From Armatimonadota bacterium (GTDB taxonomy: Bacteria > Armatimonadota > Armatimonadia > Armatimonadales > Armatimonadaceae): 37,677 nt of DNA. Position numbers and translations under genes: made by a program. The notes below the pieces were generated by a model. The model saw only the letters and a program-made list of their open reading frames with translations, was not told where the DNA came from and searched no databases. Each line of letters begins with the position of its first letter. Position 1 is the first letter of the stretch. Positions 4,888 to 36,606 of the stretch are shown here, piece by piece. The DNA lies in assembly GCA_026392155.1 (NCBI GenBank), contig JAPLCP010000194.1, positions 1 to 37,677 of the forward strand, read 5' to 3'.

Positions 4888-6240
4888 ATGGCAGCGATCA
4901 TCATGCCCAAGATGGGCGATGCAATGGAGGCGGGCGTCATTGTCCAGTTCCTCAAAAAAGTCGGTGATACGGTAGTCGCAGACGATGCGGTGTTCGAGAT
5001 CGAGACCGATAAGTCGAATGTGGAGGTGCCCGCAGGTGAGGCCGGGGTTGTCCATCAGATCCTCGCCGCCCCGGGCGCTGAGGTCAAGGTCGGTGATCCG
5101 GTTGTGATTATCGGCCAAGGCGCACCGCCCGCAGGAGGCAGCGCACCCGTTGCCGCCACTCCGGTTGTGGCATCCCCCGCCGCTGAGACGGCGACTGGGC
5201 ACCCCCTGGGTACGGTAAGCGAAGAGGTTAAATCTGTGTCGGTTGCGGCACCGGTTGTCGTGGTAACGGATCCCGCCAAACCCTACGGCGATAGCTACGT
5301 TGGCCAATTGCCCGAGGGACTCGGCGGCTCGGCATCGGTTCTGAGCGATCCCATCGAACTCGAAGGCTCCCCCAATCTTGGGGGCGGGGGGGGCGGTGAC
5401 ACTCGGGTCAAGGCCTCGCCTCTGGCCCGTGCGATTGCGGCAGCCAAGGGCGTCAACCTGGCGAGTATCAGCGCTGCGGGAACCATCACGGCAGCGGATG
5501 TTGAGGCGGCGGCTAAAACCTCTGGCTCTCCCAATCTTGGGGGCGCGATTGCCGATGAGGTCGAGGTGCAGTCCTACAACGGCATGCGTAAGACCATCGC
5601 GCGGCGCCTCACGGAGAGCAAGCAGCAGATCCCACACTTCTATGTCACCGTCGAGGTGGACATGGAAGCGCTTCTCACGCTACGCGAGCAAGTGAACGCA
5701 AGCGGCGGCGCGGTGAAGGTCTCCGTCAACGACTGTCTGCTCAAGGCCGTTTCTGTGGCCCTGCTCGCTGCGCCTAACGTCAACTCCAAGTTCGACGACA
5801 ACAAGCGCTTGGTGAGTAAGAACCACCATATCGGCTTTGGAGTCGCGCTTGAGGATGGCTTGATTGTTCCTGTGGTGCGCAATGTGCAGGCCCTGAGCCT
5901 GCGCCAGGTCGCCGCTGCGAGCAAGCCGCTGATCGAGAAGGCACGCGCCGGGAAGCTCCAGCCCGCGGACTACATGGGCGGGACGTTCACCATCTCCAAC
6001 CTGGGAGCGGTCGCGGAGGTTGAGAACTTCGCTGCGATTGTGAATCCGGGCGAGGGCGCGATCTTGGCCGTGTCGAGCACGCGCACGGTAGCCGCCGTGG
6101 TGAACGGACAGGTCGTGCCGCGCAAGCGCATGAAAGTCACCCTCTCCGCCGACCACCGTGTGGTAGATGGAGCCGATGGCGCGGCGTTCCTTGGGGCGCT
6201 GAAGAAAGCTATCGAGAACCCTCTGGAGCTGCTTCTGTAA
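4888..6240 (+). CDS. pdhC: Dihydrolipoamide acetyltransferase, E2 of pyruvate dehydrogenase
   Basis: The protein has 450 residues. In order it has one lipoyl domain (about 1-77, lipoylated lysine K42 in ETDKSNVEV), an alanine/proline/valine-rich linker, a peripheral-subunit-binding domain (about 174-207), a second linker, and the catalytic acyltransferase domain (about 228-450) with the DHRVVDGA motif (H423, D427). It accepts acetyl groups from E1 and transfers them to CoA. Both linkers flanking the subunit-binding domain contain the same peptide GSPNLGG (about 160-166 and 213-219). Each copy is encoded by a 22-base palindromic repeat (5365-5386 and 5524-5545). No E3 (lipoamide dehydrogenase) gene follows, so E3 must be elsewhere. 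Confidence 0.9.
   Translation: MAAIIMPKMGDAMEAGVIVQFLKKVGDTVVADDAVFEIETDKSNVEVPAGEAGVVHQILAAPGAEVKVGDPVVIIGQGAPPAGGSAPVAATPVVASPAAETATGHPLGTVSEEVKSVSVAAPVVVVTDPAKPYGDSYVGQLPEGLGGSASVLSDPIELEGSPNLGGGGGGDTRVKASPLARAIAAAKGVNLASISAAGTITAADVEAAAKTSGSPNLGGAIADEVEVQSYNGMRKTIARRLTESKQQIPHFYVTVEVDMEALLTLREQVNASGGAVKVSVNDCLLKAVSVALLAAPNVNSKFDDNKRLVSKNHHIGFGVALEDGLIVPVVRNVQALSLRQVAAASKPLIEKARAGKLQPADYMGGTFTISNLGAVAEVENFAAIVNPGEGAILAVSSTRTVAAVVNGQVVPRKRMKVTLSADHRVVDGADGAAFLGALKKAIENPLELLL
5365..5386 (+). repeat. Palindromic element in frame in pdhC, copy 1
   Basis: The core is CCCCCAA-TC-TTGGGGG (5369-5384), a 7-bp perfect stem with a 2-nt loop. It encodes GSPNLGG in the linker before the subunit-binding domain and is followed by a G-rich tail (5386-5396). 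It matches copy 2 at 21 of 22 positions. Confidence 0.8.
5524..5545 (+). repeat. Palindromic element in frame in pdhC, copy 2
   Basis: This is the same 22 bases as copy 1 with one change (CTCTCCC instead of CTCCCCC). The core stem is CCCAA-TC-TTGGG (5530-5541). It encodes GSPNLGG in the linker after the subunit-binding domain, in the same reading frame as copy 1. Confidence 0.8.
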
Positions 6241-6774: not shown

Positions 6775-6836
6775 TTCCCCTTCCTCCCAGGATTGGGAGG
6801 AGGGGGCGGGGGAGGAGGGCTCCCCGGAGGAGGGCT
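6775..6836 (-). repeat. Palindromic element starting at the groEL stop codon
   Basis: On the minus strand the groEL stop TAG is directly followed by CCCTCCTCCGGGG, then AGCCCTCCTCC, C-rich spacer, and the core CCTCCCA-ATCC-TGGGAGG (6800-6783). This core, including the ATCC loop, is identical to the one inside glgB at 35073-35090. The AG of the TAG stop belongs to the repeat unit AGCCCTCCTCC, the same junction as after the DUF1559 gene. Confidence 0.75.
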
Positions 6837-18790: not shown

Positions 18791-20143
18791 CTATTCCTTC
18801 TTGAGAACTTCCAGCCGGAATTTATAGGTGCTATGTCGCCGCTCACTGTCCCAGAGATGCAGGGTCATCGGCACGGAGGTGCCAGGTTTGGCGTCGGGCA
18901 TCACCTGGATCGTAAACGGGTTTTGAAGCGGGGAGCTACGGTACTCACTGGGCACCACGATCGCGGGATCTTGCGATGTCAGAACCGCATAACTCCACGC
19001 GCCGCCGGTGATTATCGGCGGTGTCCAGCCCAGAGTCGCATTGGGAGTAATGGGCTTGTCGGTCGTGCCGCTCCCCTCCAGCTTTAGAGTCCCGCGCTGC
19101 GCCAGCGGTAGCTCACCTGCGGTCTCCAGCCAGAAGCGCCAGGCCTCTTTGACATTGGTCTCGTACTCTTTGGCGACATCGCGCTCCGACGGGTAGCGCC
19201 CAGCGACGCCCTTGGCCTTGCTGGGGATGCTGATCTCAAAGTTAAAGCCATAGATGCCGTAGCTGTAGTAGGCATGCGTGTAGGTCAGCCCCGAGTTACC
19301 ACCCCGCACGCCCGGCGCGGGCTCGCTCCCTGGCTTTGACTTGGTGATGGAGTAGGGGGAGTCGCTCTGGCGCTGCTGCATCCCGGTGACGATCTTAAGA
19401 TAGCGGGCATGATCGGGGGCGATGCTATGGGCGGGGAAAAGAATCTCGCGGAGGGGGCTATGGATGTCCATAAACGCCCGGAGCTGGGGGTGCGCCGCGA
19501 AAAACGCATCCAGCGCCTGGTTCTCGGGCTCCGAGAGGGCAGCCAAGCCCTCGAAAATATCGGCACCAGGTCGCGCCGTTGAGTCGTTCCAGGTGCTGTC
19601 GATCTCGCGTCCACCGCCCCACCGAACAGGGAAGTTGCGGTTTAAGTCCACCCCAAACGTCCCATCTCCATTTCCCACTCTGTTTTTGCGCCAGTCTTTG
19701 TGCGTCTCCTCCCAGAGCTTGCCGTCCACATTGAACATCGGCACATACCAGAGGCAGCGCTGGCTCTTCCAGCCCACCGCCAGCTCCTCTTCGAGAAAGC
19801 GTAGGGTGCAGTAGGCAGGCTGCTGCTCGCGCGGGTGAATCCCCGAGAGCCACATCAGCTCCGGCTGGCCCGGCTTGCCGATACGGACAAGAGGAATGCG
19901 ACGCCCCTCGCGTGTCTTTCCGGGGAGCGCGGAGATCTCGATCAGCTCGGGGTACTTCTTCTTCCAGGCAGCAATCCGCTGCTCGATCTGGGCAAAGGTC
20001 AAAAGCCGTCCATTGGACTGATACCCTCCTCCCCCAGCCCCCGGGTACCCTCTGGGTGCCAACCCTGGGAGGAGGGGCTGGGGGAGGCCAAGTGCGGGTG
20101 CGGCGAAAAAGAGGCTGGCGAGAGCAAGAAGTGTGTATTTCAT
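18791..20143 (-). CDS. Secreted zinc carboxypeptidase, M14 family
   Basis: The protein has 450 residues with a Sec signal peptide (about 1-18). The M14 domain (about 47-330) has the zinc motif HPRE (H103, E106), the third ligand in FMDIHSP (H228), substrate residues in DLNRNFP (166-172) and the probable general base Glu in YGFNFEISIP (about residue 297). It removes C-terminal residues from peptides or trims cell-wall peptides outside the cytoplasm. The C-terminal about 95 residues form a beta-sandwich-like appendix. The residues right after the signal peptide (about 19-39, PQPLLPGLAP..GAGGGG) are encoded by a palindromic element. The ribosome binding site is also part of a second copy of that element. 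Confidence 0.88.
   Translation of the reverse strand: MKYTLLALASLFFAAPALGLPQPLLPGLAPRGYPGAGGGGYQSNGRLLTFAQIEQRIAAWKKKYPELIEISALPGKTREGRRIPLVRIGKPGQPELMWLSGIHPREQQPAYCTLRFLEEELAVGWKSQRCLWYVPMFNVDGKLWEETHKDWRKNRVGNGDGTFGVDLNRNFPVRWGGGREIDSTWNDSTARPGADIFEGLAALSEPENQALDAFFAAHPQLRAFMDIHSPLREILFPAHSIAPDHARYLKIVTGMQQRQSDSPYSITKSKPGSEPAPGVRGGNSGLTYTHAYYSYGIYGFNFEISIPSKAKGVAGRYPSERDVAKEYETNVKEAWRFWLETAGELPLAQRGTLKLEGSGTTDKPITPNATLGWTPPIITGGAWSYAVLTSQDPAIVVPSEYRSSPLQNPFTIQVMPDAKPGTSVPMTLHLWDSERRHSTYKFRLEVLKKE
20024..20088 (-). repeat. Palindromic element in frame at the mature N-terminus of the M14 peptidase
   Basis: The arms CCTCCCCCAGCCCC (20028-20041) and GGGGCTGGGGGAGG (20074-20087) form a perfect 14-bp stem. 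The right half (AACCCTGGGAGGAGGGGC) closely matches the right half of the glgB copy. The central part differs, with a CCCGGGTACCC-like insertion. Confidence 0.7.
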
Positions 20144-20149
20144 AAAGTT

Positions 20150-20214
20150 ACTCCCCTCCTCCCAGAGCTCTTGGGAGGAGGGAACTAGGGAGGAGGGGCT
20201 GGGGGAGGAGGGCT
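20150..20214 (-). repeat. Palindromic element between the DUF1559 and M14 genes
   Basis: On the minus strand the DUF1559 stop TAG is directly followed by CCCTCCTCCCCC, AGCCCCTCCTCCC and then a second arm pair CCCTCCTCCCA / TGGGAGGAGGG (20182-20154). The final GGAGGAGGGGAG ends 7 nt before the M14 ATG and is the only plausible Shine-Dalgarno sequence. The element therefore fills the whole 69-base gap. Confidence 0.75.
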
Positions 20215-32512: not shown

Positions 32513-34603
32513 ATGTCCCGCCACCGCTACTTTACGCCTCCGCAAACGCAGCAGCGTGTGGCTGAGGACATCAGCATCGTCCGAATTATAGGGATGGGTG
32601 GAGTGCTGCTCAGTCTCTTCTCCGTTCTTGTGGGACGACTATGGCTTCTGCAAATGGTGCGTGGTGAAGAGCATCGCGACAAGGCACTTTCCAACCGGAG
32701 TCGAGCCGTCCGGACAACGGCTCCGCGTGGAGTTATTAAAGATAGTAAGGGACGTACTCTTGTTGATAATACAACAAAACGTGTTGTCTTTCTTCATCCC
32801 GATGAGGTTGGGGGAGTAGAGCGCCTGCTTCGCATTGTAGACCCAGCACGTCTTATCCCGCCGCCTAAGGAAAAGCCCGCAGGCTCTAAGAAGCCCCTTG
32901 CAAGCCCCGCTCCTACACCAGCACCCGTGCCACTGACAAAAGCGGAGGCACTGCGTGAGCTGGATAAAAAGCGGAGCCCCAAAAAACTAGCAAAGCTACA
33001 AGAACAAGATAAACAGGCAAGTGCCTATCTTGATCTTTTGGCAAAGCGGATTGAGGTACCCCGTGAGGAGCTGGAAAAGACAATTCGAGGAAAGATCAGC
33101 GGAGCAAACGATCCTATTCCCATTCGCGAGGGAATTGACCAGGCGCTCATGGCTCGCATCTATGAGCTGCAAGACAATCTACCAGGAGTGTCTGTCGAAG
33201 TGGTACCGATGCGCTACTACCCTTTCCCCAATCGGGCGACCCATGTTCTAGGGTTTACCGCACAAGTAAACCCCGATGATCTCAAGACACCTAAGCTCGC
33301 CGACTATCCTACGGACAAGAAGTACCGTCCGGGGGATCTGATCGGGCGCACCGGGCTAGAGATGCAGTATGATGCCTATCTACGAGGAACTTTAGGCTCG
33401 GAGAGGTTTGAAGTGGATGGTCGGGGCCGCCGTCGCAAAGAGATGGGGGAAGTACCCGCCAAAGCCGGAGACACGCTGGTTCTAGCGCTGGATGCCCGTG
33501 TTCAGGAGGCGGCGGAGAAAGCCTTGGGGGGAAATCCAGGGGCTGTGGTGGCAATAGACCCGCGCAATGGTCATATTCTCGCCATGGCCAGTGGCCCTAC
33601 CTACGATTTGAACCTGCGAACACGCCCCATGACGACAGCTGAGTCCGATATGCTCAATAAGGACAAGGCGAAGAGGCCCTTGCTCAATCGAACCATTGCG
33701 AGATTTCCGCCTGGCTCGACCTTTAAGATTGTTACCATGGCAGCGGGCCTGGCTTCGCACCGCTTGCCCAGTAGTGCTTTTTGCCCAGGTTATATCTCTC
33801 TGGGGGGAAATAAGAAGAAGAAATGCCACGGAACGCATGGTAGTGTTAGCCCTACGTCTGCATTTGCGCAGTCTTGCGATGTTTTTTACTACAACGCGGG
33901 TGTCAAGATCGGAGATGTCACTCTTGCGGAGTGGGCAGGGAAATTTGGTCTTGGCAAAGTAACGGGTCTCGATTTTCCCTACGAGAAATCCGGGACAATT
34001 CCCACAAAAAAGTGGGTGACGGAAGAACTTAAAGAGGGGTGGTGGCGAGGAAATCTCTATGACATGGCGATTGGCCAGGGCTATGATGAGGCAACCCCGC
34101 TTCAGATTGCACTTGTCGCTGCGACAATTGCCAACGGAGGCACGGTCTGGCAGCCACATCTCGTTGATAAAGTGGTAGATAGCGATGACCCAAAGAAAGT
34201 ATTGCTCGAAACTAAGCCTGTGGAGCTGGGTAAGCTAGGACTGAGCAAAGACCATATTGGGCAGATTCAGCGTGCCATGCGCTCTGTGGTGGAGTCGGGG
34301 ACAGGGAAAGCGGCGGCAGTCTCGGGTATTGAGGTCTATGGTAAGACAGGGACGGCAGAGACGGGAGTGAGTGCAAAGACGCATGGTTGGTTCACGGGGT
34401 ATGCCGCTCGGCGTGGCGAGGCTCCTAGTATCGCGGTCTGTGTCTTTCGTGAGGCGCTGAAATCAGGAGATAATTTTCACGGTGGAGATGTCTGTGCCCC
34501 TGCTGCCCATCACGTGATTGAGACTTACTTTAGTAGCGAGACCACGAAGTCTCCTGTACCCAAACCAACACCAGCTCCCAGCCGTCGTAGACGAAGCCGA
34601 TGA
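32513..34603 (+). CDS. mrdA: Penicillin-binding protein 2 (cell elongation transpeptidase)
   Basis: The protein has 696 residues. A transmembrane helix (about 24-47) precedes the PBP dimerisation domain (TTAPRGVIKDSKGRTLVDN, about 68-86), and the transpeptidase has STFK (S402), SCD (454-456) and KTGTAETG (about 611). It cross-links peptidoglycan during elongation with RodA. Unusual is a Lys/Pro/Ala-rich insertion at about 114-170 in the N-terminal domain. It lies 2 bases after the PBP1A stop, and its own stop overlaps glgB (ATGA). The KCHG-containing loop (about 433-442, GGNKKKKCHGTHG) is like that of PBP2/SpoVD-type enzymes. RodA is not in the window. Confidence 0.9.
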   Translation: MSRHRYFTPPQTQQRVAEDISIVRIIGMGGVLLSLFSVLVGRLWLLQMVRGEEHRDKALSNRSRAVRTTAPRGVIKDSKGRTLVDNTTKRVVFLHPDEVGGVERLLRIVDPARLIPPPKEKPAGSKKPLASPAPTPAPVPLTKAEALRELDKKRSPKKLAKLQEQDKQASAYLDLLAKRIEVPREELEKTIRGKISGANDPIPIREGIDQALMARIYELQDNLPGVSVEVVPMRYYPFPNRATHVLGFTAQVNPDDLKTPKLADYPTDKKYRPGDLIGRTGLEMQYDAYLRGTLGSERFEVDGRGRRRKEMGEVPAKAGDTLVLALDARVQEAAEKALGGNPGAVVAIDPRNGHILAMASGPTYDLNLRTRPMTTAESDMLNKDKAKRPLLNRTIARFPPGSTFKIVTMAAGLASHRLPSSAFCPGYISLGGNKKKKCHGTHGSVSPTSAFAQSCDVFYYNAGVKIGDVTLAEWAGKFGLGKVTGLDFPYEKSGTIPTKKWVTEELKEGWWRGNLYDMAIGQGYDEATPLQIALVAATIANGGTVWQPHLVDKVVDSDDPKKVLLETKPVELGKLGLSKDHIGQIQRAMRSVVESGTGKAAAVSGIEVYGKTGTAETGVSAKTHGWFTGYAARRGEAPSIAVCVFREALKSGDNFHGGDVCAPAAHHVIETYFSSETTKSPVPKPTPAPSRRRRSR

Positions 34604-36606
34604 TCCCGGAGCTGATTCGTCTTGATCCCACCCTCACGCCTTACACGGCGGAAATCCAGCAGCGCCTAGCACTCTACCAGGCTACTCAGGAGAGGCTGGG
34701 GCCACTGACGGGAGCCATCAGCCAAGGCCATGCCTACTTTGGTTTTACGCAGACCACAGCGGGCTCTGTGGTCTACCGGGAGTGGGCACCCGTAGCCACG
34801 AGCCTGCACCTGATCGGAGATTTTAATGGCTGGAATCGGAGTGCAACCCCTCTCGTGCGGGATGATCACGGAACCTGGGAGGTCACTCTCCCCCCCGGCG
34901 CATTGGTTCAGGGAAGCCGTGTCAAAGTGCATGTCCACGCCGCCGATGACAGCCGCCTCGACCGCATTCCCGCCTACATTCGTCGGGCAACCCAGGACCC
35001 CGAAACAAAAGACTTCTGCGGCGAAGTATGGTTCGCACCATCCTCCTCCCCCACCCCTCCTCCCCCACCCCTCCTCCCAATCCTGGGAGGAGGGGTGGGG
35101 GAGGAGGGGCTTCGCATCTATGAGGCACATGTGGGGATGGCACAAGAAGAGCCGGGAGTGGGGACTTTTGCGGAGTTCACGGAGAAGATTCTCCCCCGGA
35201 TCGCCGCGCTGGGCTACAGTGCGGTGCAGCTCATGGCGGTTCAGGAGCACCCGTACTACGGCTCGTTTGGCTACCATGTCAGTAGCTTCTACGGCGTTTC
35301 AAGTCGCTTTGGCACGCCCGATGACTTGCGGGCGCTGATTGAGCGTGCGCATGCGCTGGGCCTGCGGGTGCTGATGGATCTGGTGCATAGCCACGCAGTG
35401 AAGAACCTGCTGGAGGGCTTGAGCCGCTTTGACGGCACCGAGTGGCAGTACTTTCATGACGGCCCCCGTGGCTTTCATCGTGGCTGGGACTCGCGCTGCT
35501 TTGACTACGGCAAGCTCGAAGTGCTGCGCTTCTTGCTCTCCAATGTCCGCTACTGGCTGGAGGAGTATGGCTTCGATGGCTTTCGCTTCGATGGCGTCAC
35601 CAGCATGCTCTATCACGACCATGGCGTGCGAGATTTTCAGGGCTACCGGGACTACTTTAGTGCCAATGTAGACAACGAAGCGGTGTGCTACTTACAGCTT
35701 GCCAATGCGCTCGCTCATGAAATTCAGCCCGATGTCCTCACGGTCGCGGAGGATGTCTCGGGGATGCCGGGGCTCTGTCGGCCTGTGGGCGAGGGGGGCA
35801 TTGGCTTTGACTACCGGCTGGCGATGGGCGTCCCGGACTTTTGGATTAAGCTGACCAAAGACACCCCCGACGAAGCCTGGTCGGTGGGAAATATCTGGGG
35901 AACTCTGACCAATCGGCGCTTTAGCGAGAAGCACATTGGCTATGCCGAGAGCCACGACCAGTCTATCGTGGGGGATCAGACCCTGGCGTTTCGGCTGATG
36001 GGGCTGCAGATGTACACCGAGATGGCGATTGGCCGCGAGAGCCTTGTTGTGGATCGGGGAATGGCGCTGCATAAGCTCATCCGCCTGCTGACCTACACAC
36101 TGGCGGGCGAGGGCTGGCTAAGCTTTATCGGCAATGAGTTTGGGCACCCCGAGTGGGTGGACTTTCCCCGCGAAGGCAACGACTGGAGCTACACCTACGC
36201 CCGCCGCCAGTGGTCGCTCGCCGACAGTCCGTTTCTGCGCTACCAGTTCCTCCAGGCCTTCGACAAGGCCCTGATGCACCTGCCGCAGCCCACCAGCCCC
36301 CCCGAGCTTTTGGCCCTGCACGAAGACAACCACCTGCTGGTCTACCAGAGCGCGGGGCTGGTGATCGCGGTCAACCTACACCCTACCCAGAGCCTCTCCG
36401 ATCTCCGAATCCCCGTGCCCGAGCCATGTGACTATCACTTGCTCCTCGACACAGATCAGACAGCACTGGGCGGCCAAGAGCGCGTTCTCGAAAAGAGCAC
36501 CTATGTCTGGGAGCCCCTTGCCGTGGGGCAGGCAGCCCAGAGTATCCAGGTCTACCTGCCCAGCCGCTGCGCTCTGGTACTTGCACCTACCAAGGCCAGG
36601 GAGTAA
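34600..36606 (+). CDS. glgB: 1,4-alpha-glucan branching enzyme, GH13_8 type
   Basis: The protein has 668 residues. An N-terminal CBM48 (about 42-130, with YREWAPVATSLHLIGDFNGW) precedes a GH13 catalytic barrel: D260 region (VLMDLVHSHAVKN), nucleophile D331 in DGFRFDGVTSMLYHDHG, acid/base E384 in TVAEDVSG and H452-D453 in AESHDQ. The DGVTSMLY/HSHA motifs are typical of the eukaryotic-like GH13_8 subfamily. It makes alpha-1,6 branches in glycogen. Between the CBM48 and the barrel (residues about 148-170, before LRIYEAHVGM) lies a Pro-rich then Gly-rich insertion encoded by a 26-bp perfect palindrome. The start ATG overlaps the PBP2 stop (ATGA). Confidence 0.93.
   Translation: MIPELIRLDPTLTPYTAEIQQRLALYQATQERLGPLTGAISQGHAYFGFTQTTAGSVVYREWAPVATSLHLIGDFNGWNRSATPLVRDDHGTWEVTLPPGALVQGSRVKVHVHAADDSRLDRIPAYIRRATQDPETKDFCGEVWFAPSSSPTPPPPPLLPILGGGVGEEGLRIYEAHVGMAQEEPGVGTFAEFTEKILPRIAALGYSAVQLMAVQEHPYYGSFGYHVSSFYGVSSRFGTPDDLRALIERAHALGLRVLMDLVHSHAVKNLLEGLSRFDGTEWQYFHDGPRGFHRGWDSRCFDYGKLEVLRFLLSNVRYWLEEYGFDGFRFDGVTSMLYHDHGVRDFQGYRDYFSANVDNEAVCYLQLANALAHEIQPDVLTVAEDVSGMPGLCRPVGEGGIGFDYRLAMGVPDFWIKLTKDTPDEAWSVGNIWGTLTNRRFSEKHIGYAESHDQSIVGDQTLAFRLMGLQMYTEMAIGRESLVVDRGMALHKLIRLLTYTLAGEGWLSFIGNEFGHPEWVDFPREGNDWSYTYARRQWSLADSPFLRYQFLQAFDKALMHLPQPTSPPELLALHEDNHLLVYQSAGLVIAVNLHPTQSLSDLRIPVPEPCDYHLLLDTDQTALGGQERVLEKSTYVWEPLAVGQAAQSIQVYLPSRCALVLAPTKARE
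35042..35110 (+). repeat. Palindromic element in frame in glgB (26-bp perfect stem)
   Basis: The stem runs from 35054-35079 to 35084-35109 with a loop of 4 (ATCC). The inner part is CCTCCCA-ATCC-TGGGAGG, then CTCCT/AGGAG, then CCCCACC-like arms. A partial extra copy of the C-rich arm precedes it (35042-35053). The translated segment, residues 148-170, keeps the frame and adds Pro-Pro-Pro-Leu-Leu-Pro then Gly-Gly-Gly. Confidence 0.9.

Follow-up and report, generated by a model that had tools for sequence, protein, structure and literature searches.

Rickettsia supplies the best-known examples of palindromic repeats that are translated in frame within protein genes; a few scattered cases come from other organisms. 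The RPEs of Rickettsia are dispersed palindromic repeats that lie in frame inside unrelated genes and encode an extra peptide at solvent-exposed places (PMC10969869, PMC6649704), and for RPE-4, RPE-6 and RPE-7 distinct groups occupy identical or neighbouring sites from one species to another, the choice between a hot spot and divergence being left undecided (PMC3767692). Intragenic REPs, which carry GTAG or CGTC tags and are described from O. terrae, Thauera, Xanthomonas and others, form inverted hairpin pairs that are mostly intergenic, with some inside ORFs, including genes for DNA polymerase I (polA) and tRNA synthetases, and at roughly one and the same position in recB the REPs differ between two Xanthomonas species (PMC3733652). 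Bacterial MITEs, such as the QMITEs of Coxiella, are short and non-coding, reach high copy numbers, are bounded by terminal inverted repeats and are occasionally in frame (PMC5896051, PMC10969869). Finally, coding palindromes, that is, perfect inverted repeats inside protein genes, are known from the mitochondria of nematomorphs (PMC6649704).

Here we describe one family of in-frame palindromic repeats in at least 26 genes of an Armatimonadota genome; a literature search on palindromes in this phylum found nothing relevant. We refer to the family as family A, a label given here to the dispersed palindromic repeat that includes a copy in the branching enzyme gene glgB. Like RPEs, which are its closest parallel, family A is dispersed, palindromic and in frame in unrelated genes, where it encodes added peptide. 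Unlike RPEs, its arms are GC-rich purine/pyrimidine tracts, it resides in a different phylum and in a 4.8-Mb genome, and in glgB it has overwritten most of the native linker. A preliminary description of the locus had likened the palindrome to RPEs, and the likeness extends to how family A works (dispersed, in frame, absent in orthologues) and stops short of homology. A sequence relation to RPEs is not apparent, and the AT-rich Rickettsia origin of RPEs makes such similarity unlikely. As in intragenic REPs, family A hairpins occur in inverted pairs, and some copies are in polA and a tRNA synthetase gene (argS); in contrast to REPs, neither a conserved terminal tag nor a linked RAYT was found, roughly one in four of the clusters read is intragenic, and unrelated families of a sister species occupy many of the same sites. 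With MITEs it has in common its short length, high copy number and, in full-length copies, inverted ends, but it is without target-site duplication, and no parent transposon was found in the two intervals between close copies that were checked. In the nematomorph palindromes both arms code for conserved residues, and descriptions of them mention no dispersed family, whereas family A is dispersed. Since in-gene REPs and same-site cases of RPEs are known, family A is not a new kind of element; it is a new family and a variant, in-gene REPs and hot-spot-like RPE sites being already documented. What is unusual in it is the same-site turnover of unrelated families together with frequent openness in all six frames.

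The glgB copy lies in a window of 37,677 nt, the whole stretch of DNA that was analysed. Its host gene (34600..36606, plus strand) encodes a GH13_8-type 1,4-alpha-glucan branching enzyme of 668 aa with Pfam matches to CBM_48 (47-126), Alpha-amylase (from 186) and Alpha-amylase_C (574-663), and its nearest solved structure by sequence is the branching enzyme 4bzy. The preliminary description had reported a 26-bp perfect palindrome with a 4-nt loop through which the coding frame passes, and both points were borne out: an inverted-repeat search placed the left arm at 35054..35079 and the right arm, G-rich on the coding strand, at 35084..35109 (both +; 26 nt each, 100% complementary), and the 668-aa ORF is open all through the palindrome. 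A second pairing register (35042-35064 / 35085-35107) shows the left arm to contain an additional 14-bp unit, so that the family A repeat tract spans about 35042..35109, corresponding to approximately residues 148-170 of GlgB. Folded as RNA, the palindrome is predicted to reach -66.6 kcal/mol (z = -7.6 versus dinucleotide shuffles; 0/200 equally stable), and given this predicted stability an effect of the hairpin on glgB translation is possible.

We examined family A across the window's own genome (G000; 4.77 Mb, 228 contigs), with copy counts taken from pattern searches and from sequence stretches around copies. The 101 bp around the glgB palindrome gave 95 matches, a figure that is not a copy count because a palindrome is able to match on both strands. 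The hairpin core of family A (CTCCCAGGATTGGGAGGAGGGG) was found at least 121 times at ≤3 mismatches, versus 0 for a reversed control pattern; the glgB palindrome is far beyond chance and is one copy of a dispersed repeat family in this genome. Reading 481 kb around family A copies, we defined 111 copy clusters. A full-length copy consists of two inverted halves of ~40 bp, each with its own hairpin, for roughly 125-145 bp in total, and these inverted halves give it the terminal inverted repeats typical of MITEs; the single halves, which make up many copies including that in glgB, are without them. Elsewhere in the window, an intergenic copy lies at 6784..6819 (+; hairpin-core search, cluster reading), and compound copies at 20024..20212 surround the start of a peptidase M14 ORF (18791-20143, minus strand; inverted repeats, clusters, Pfam). 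On another contig (C37:9286-9462; L033-L035), a family A end and 26 bp of its flank (TTCAGGTACAATCCCTTTATCATGAA) are duplicated in tandem, possibly through a recent rearrangement or as an assembly effect.

Alignment with relatives bore on how the repeat came to lie in GlgB. The spacing from W144 to Y174 is 30 residues in this GlgB versus 21-25 in 45 of the 47 aligned relatives (the two outliers have 27 and 48), and the aromatic linker motif [FY]-x-[WF], kept in 46 of 48 aligned sequences, is missing from it. The segment formed by residues 148-170 is absent from the sister species and from other GlgB relatives, which have a different short linker at this place, as expected in the preliminary description for GH13_8 branching enzymes. 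The net length gain is 8 aa (+24 bp) versus the sister species and 5-9 aa versus most GH13_8 enzymes. Because the motif is gone and the spacing is up by only 5-9 residues, the repeat has overwritten the native linker, which on this alignment is mostly replaced rather than joined by a repeat simply dropped in. The in-frame insertion proposed earlier is thus supported by orthologues that are without the segment, but not as a clean insertion, the native linker having gone together with the [FY]-x-[WF] motif. The GlgB linker of the sister species (WFAPLSLPLPMSRGVAGEGLRIY) is likewise without the motif, and for this reason the site was probably altered already in the common ancestor, before the two species split. 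An AlphaFold model built with 48 sequences had a pLDDT of 89.1 overall and <50 at residues 160-167, which are predicted to form a disordered tether joining two well-modelled domains.

To score the two flanks of every family A cluster we used a three-periodic coding model that had been trained on 203 long ORFs; the surrounding genes were called from ORFs, coding potential and orthologues. In 28 of the 111 clusters (26 genes), one and the same frame has coding character in both flanks and contains no stop within the repeat. Genes with in-frame copies include argS, polA, queG, hemD, lnt and a uxaA-like dehydratase gene, as well as those for an E2 acyltransferase, an NFACT protein, a TauE permease and PSCyt/PSD proteins; assignment of the gene at C95:34158 to DNA polymerase III was rejected, the Pfam match being to DNA polymerase I. 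The repeat-encoded peptides PSSPSPSSQSWEEG and LLPQPLLPILGGG, which are two frames of the same DNA, recur in unrelated proteins. Many inserts lie between Pfam domains or directly before one, and some lie within a domain match (argS, hemD, queG, TauE, DUF1611), where they presumably sit in loops. Judged from sequence, the in-gene copies would mostly occupy flexible linkers and are predicted to be incorporated into proteins, outside the few groups known for this. The earlier view of a mobile palindrome that stays translatable holds for a dispersed repeat that stays open, and its mobility is suggested by copy number, patchy distribution and orthologue comparison; no sign of excision was found.

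Copies that break a reading frame were also sought. We listed 23 cases with coding flanks on the same strand in different frames, and 20 of these were compared with the sister species (three omitted for length; the last one partial). The compared flanks mostly map to different ORFs or places in that species, seven cases were judged by eye to be gene boundaries, and the two candidates reported in a single open frame in the sister (upstream of dnaN; xdh) have a stop between the genes. Repeat-tract length modulo 3 was uninformative as a sign of coding selection, the ends of the repeats being fuzzy. At one junction (C181:23664-23792; L133), a family A copy lies between lepB-like and rnhB-like genes; the RNase HII frame seemingly has no ATG after the repeat, so the N-terminus of this protein may be repeat-encoded.

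The composition of the repeat bears on why it remains translatable. The arms of family A consist almost entirely of purines on one strand and of pyrimidines on the other, and stop codons are consequently rare in all six frames. Of 83 non-genic copies, 43 have no stop in any of the six frames, versus 20 expected from dinucleotide-preserving shuffles, and this openness is therefore a trait of the repeat, not just of copies under coding selection. Tolerance of the repeat in GlgB would follow both from these arms, which leave few stops in any frame, and from the nature of its product, a Pro/Gly-rich disordered stretch at a position with little constraint on length or sequence.

We compared the occupied sites with the genome of the sister species (G001), which belongs to the same genus and has a GlgB 82% identical. 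An orthologue was present at 27/27 compared sites and family A at 0/27, the one family A core of that genome lying outside them. Counted by eye from the listed sequences, a different palindromic repeat is present at ~15 of the 27 sites, three are ambiguous and nine, including glgB, are native-looking or empty. These other repeats comprise family B (CCCCCCCCGCCCCC-n-GGGGGAGC; degenerate in some copies), family C (found in a PSCyt2/PSD1 gene) and family D (CCATCTCCCC...GGGAGATGGC). Exact family B copies number 40 in the sister genome, and four of them fall within the 27 orthologous segments (2.2 kb total) versus ~0.02 expected under uniform placement (P ~4e-9); real placement is non-uniform, linkers being tolerated places, so this enrichment shows shared preferred sites, not mechanism. 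For five genes the comparison was extended to more distant relatives (G007, G017), whose linkers at these places vary, are similar in length and contain none of these repeats. A module (GGGTACCCTCTGGGTG or its reverse) is common to composite repeats of both genomes, including several in-gene copies, and suggests older repeat material held in common. A long palindromic repeat (GGCATCCCTCCCC...GGGGAGGGATGCC) was also observed at the same linker of several paralogous PSCyt2/PSD1 genes in the sister (G001:C4:468590-468760 and similar sites; L151, L175, L176, L177).

More tentatively, several unrelated palindromic families might take turns at the same core-protein linkers in sister species, an older repeat or linker acting as a landing pad that is overwritten by a newer repeat, with linker peptides of essential enzymes exchanged in frame; we consider this model possible but less likely than not. 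The two genomes, with the same sites and often different repeats, constitute a paired comparison, and the question raised by RPE-4/6/7, of a hot spot versus a diverged common insertion, is therefore testable at many sites.

Beyond this pair, the family A core at ≤2 mismatches was detected in 9 of 291 Armatimonadota genomes, with the largest counts in the genome studied here (98), G060 (47), G018 (28) and the single-contig genome G014 (7). Core copies in the other genomes are variants such as CTCCCAGAATTGGGAGAAGGGG; those of G014 and G018 have the same two-hairpin layout and lie between genes, and no long spanning ORF was found across the copies sampled in other Armatimonadota genomes. The strict family A pattern had no match in GTDB r220 genome contigs, in a scan that may omit the own or a very near genome.

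Very probably, the glgB palindrome is a copy of a high-copy, REP/MITE-like non-autonomous palindromic repeat that spread through the genome, overwrote the linker tethering CBM48 to the barrel of GlgB and was tolerated there. Movement or copying within the genome would generate new copies, one of which would have come to rest in the flexible segment that connects CBM48 with the catalytic barrel; selection would remove copies that break genes, leaving those in frame at linkers and loops. The likeliest movers would be a tyrosine (HUH/Y1) transposase acting on hairpins, or replication or gene-conversion copying between repeats. A rival account dispenses with transposition: template switching during replication, or gene conversion, among C-rich/G-rich linkers would create or propagate the repeats where they stand, at the expense of the linker already there. 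Loss of the native glgB linker, the presence of unrelated families at common sites and the lack of target-site duplication (flanks of lengths 2 to 9 do not match beyond chance pairs) all fit this account, as do small net gains at several sites unoccupied in the sister (glgB +24 bp, C218 +6, C180 +15, C27 +15), which gene conversion or template switching explains at least as well as simple insertion. We nevertheless consider it possible but rather unlikely, given net gains as large as +99 bp (C179) and +90 bp (C200:5999) at other sites and the defined two-hairpin layout of full-length family A, the same in intergenic copies of G014 and G018, as for a mobile element.

It is doubtful that family A is moved by one of this genome's own RAYT-type (HUH, Y1) transposases, a mechanism that would qualify its copies as true REPs. 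Three loci carry Y1_Tnp genes, and inverted hairpin pairs without target duplications fit such a mover; however, no Y1 gene is flanked by family A copies, none of which lies within 1.5 kb of these genes save for a possible one-mismatch 10-mer, and flank composition revealed no conserved GTAG- or CGTC-like tag beside the hairpins, only a mild TA excess. The two intervals checked between close family A copies hold ordinary-looking ORFs and no transposase. A role for the palindrome in regulating glgB expression, as a functional hairpin or G-quadruplex, would agree with the very stable fold (-66.6 kcal/mol), the G runs of the right arm and the many family A copies at gene ends, but is improbable for a repeat that recurs mid-gene in unrelated genes, core genes included, with no common regulatory theme and that is absent in the sister species. 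Palindromes and repeats do cause misassembly, and the assembly has 228 contigs; an assembly error is nonetheless scarcely credible when dozens of independent copies leave conserved genes in frame, the single-contig G014 contains related elements and other repeats behave in the same way in the sister species. A native Pro/Gly linker that is palindromic by chance is virtually untenable, for although such richness is frequent in linkers, this 26-bp perfect palindrome is common as DNA to >100 other loci.

The in-gene copies offer natural linker replacements in well-studied enzymes (GlgB, ArgRS, PolA, E2, QueG, HemD) that are directly assayable. They also carry a warning for annotation: predicted repeat-encoded peptides in such proteins are not errors by default.

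Other repeats were observed in the window. At 564-728, nested family D-like inverted repeats (GGCCATCTCTCC...GGGGAGATGGCC, with an inner CCCTCTTCCC hairpin) lie upstream of an acyltransferase ORF (749-2017), and at 2604-2753 there is a 32-bp inverted repeat (97%; TCCCGCCGGTTGGAGCGGCGGGACTA) with 86 bp between its arms, by eye unrelated to family A. A family B palindrome (CCCCCCCCGCCCCC-AAGATT-GGGGGAGC) at 5366-5393 (minus) lies in frame within ORF 4888-6240 (+), a second E2 acyltransferase gene, where it encodes SPNLGGGGGG directly before the E3-binding domain; a similar SPNLGG follows the domain.
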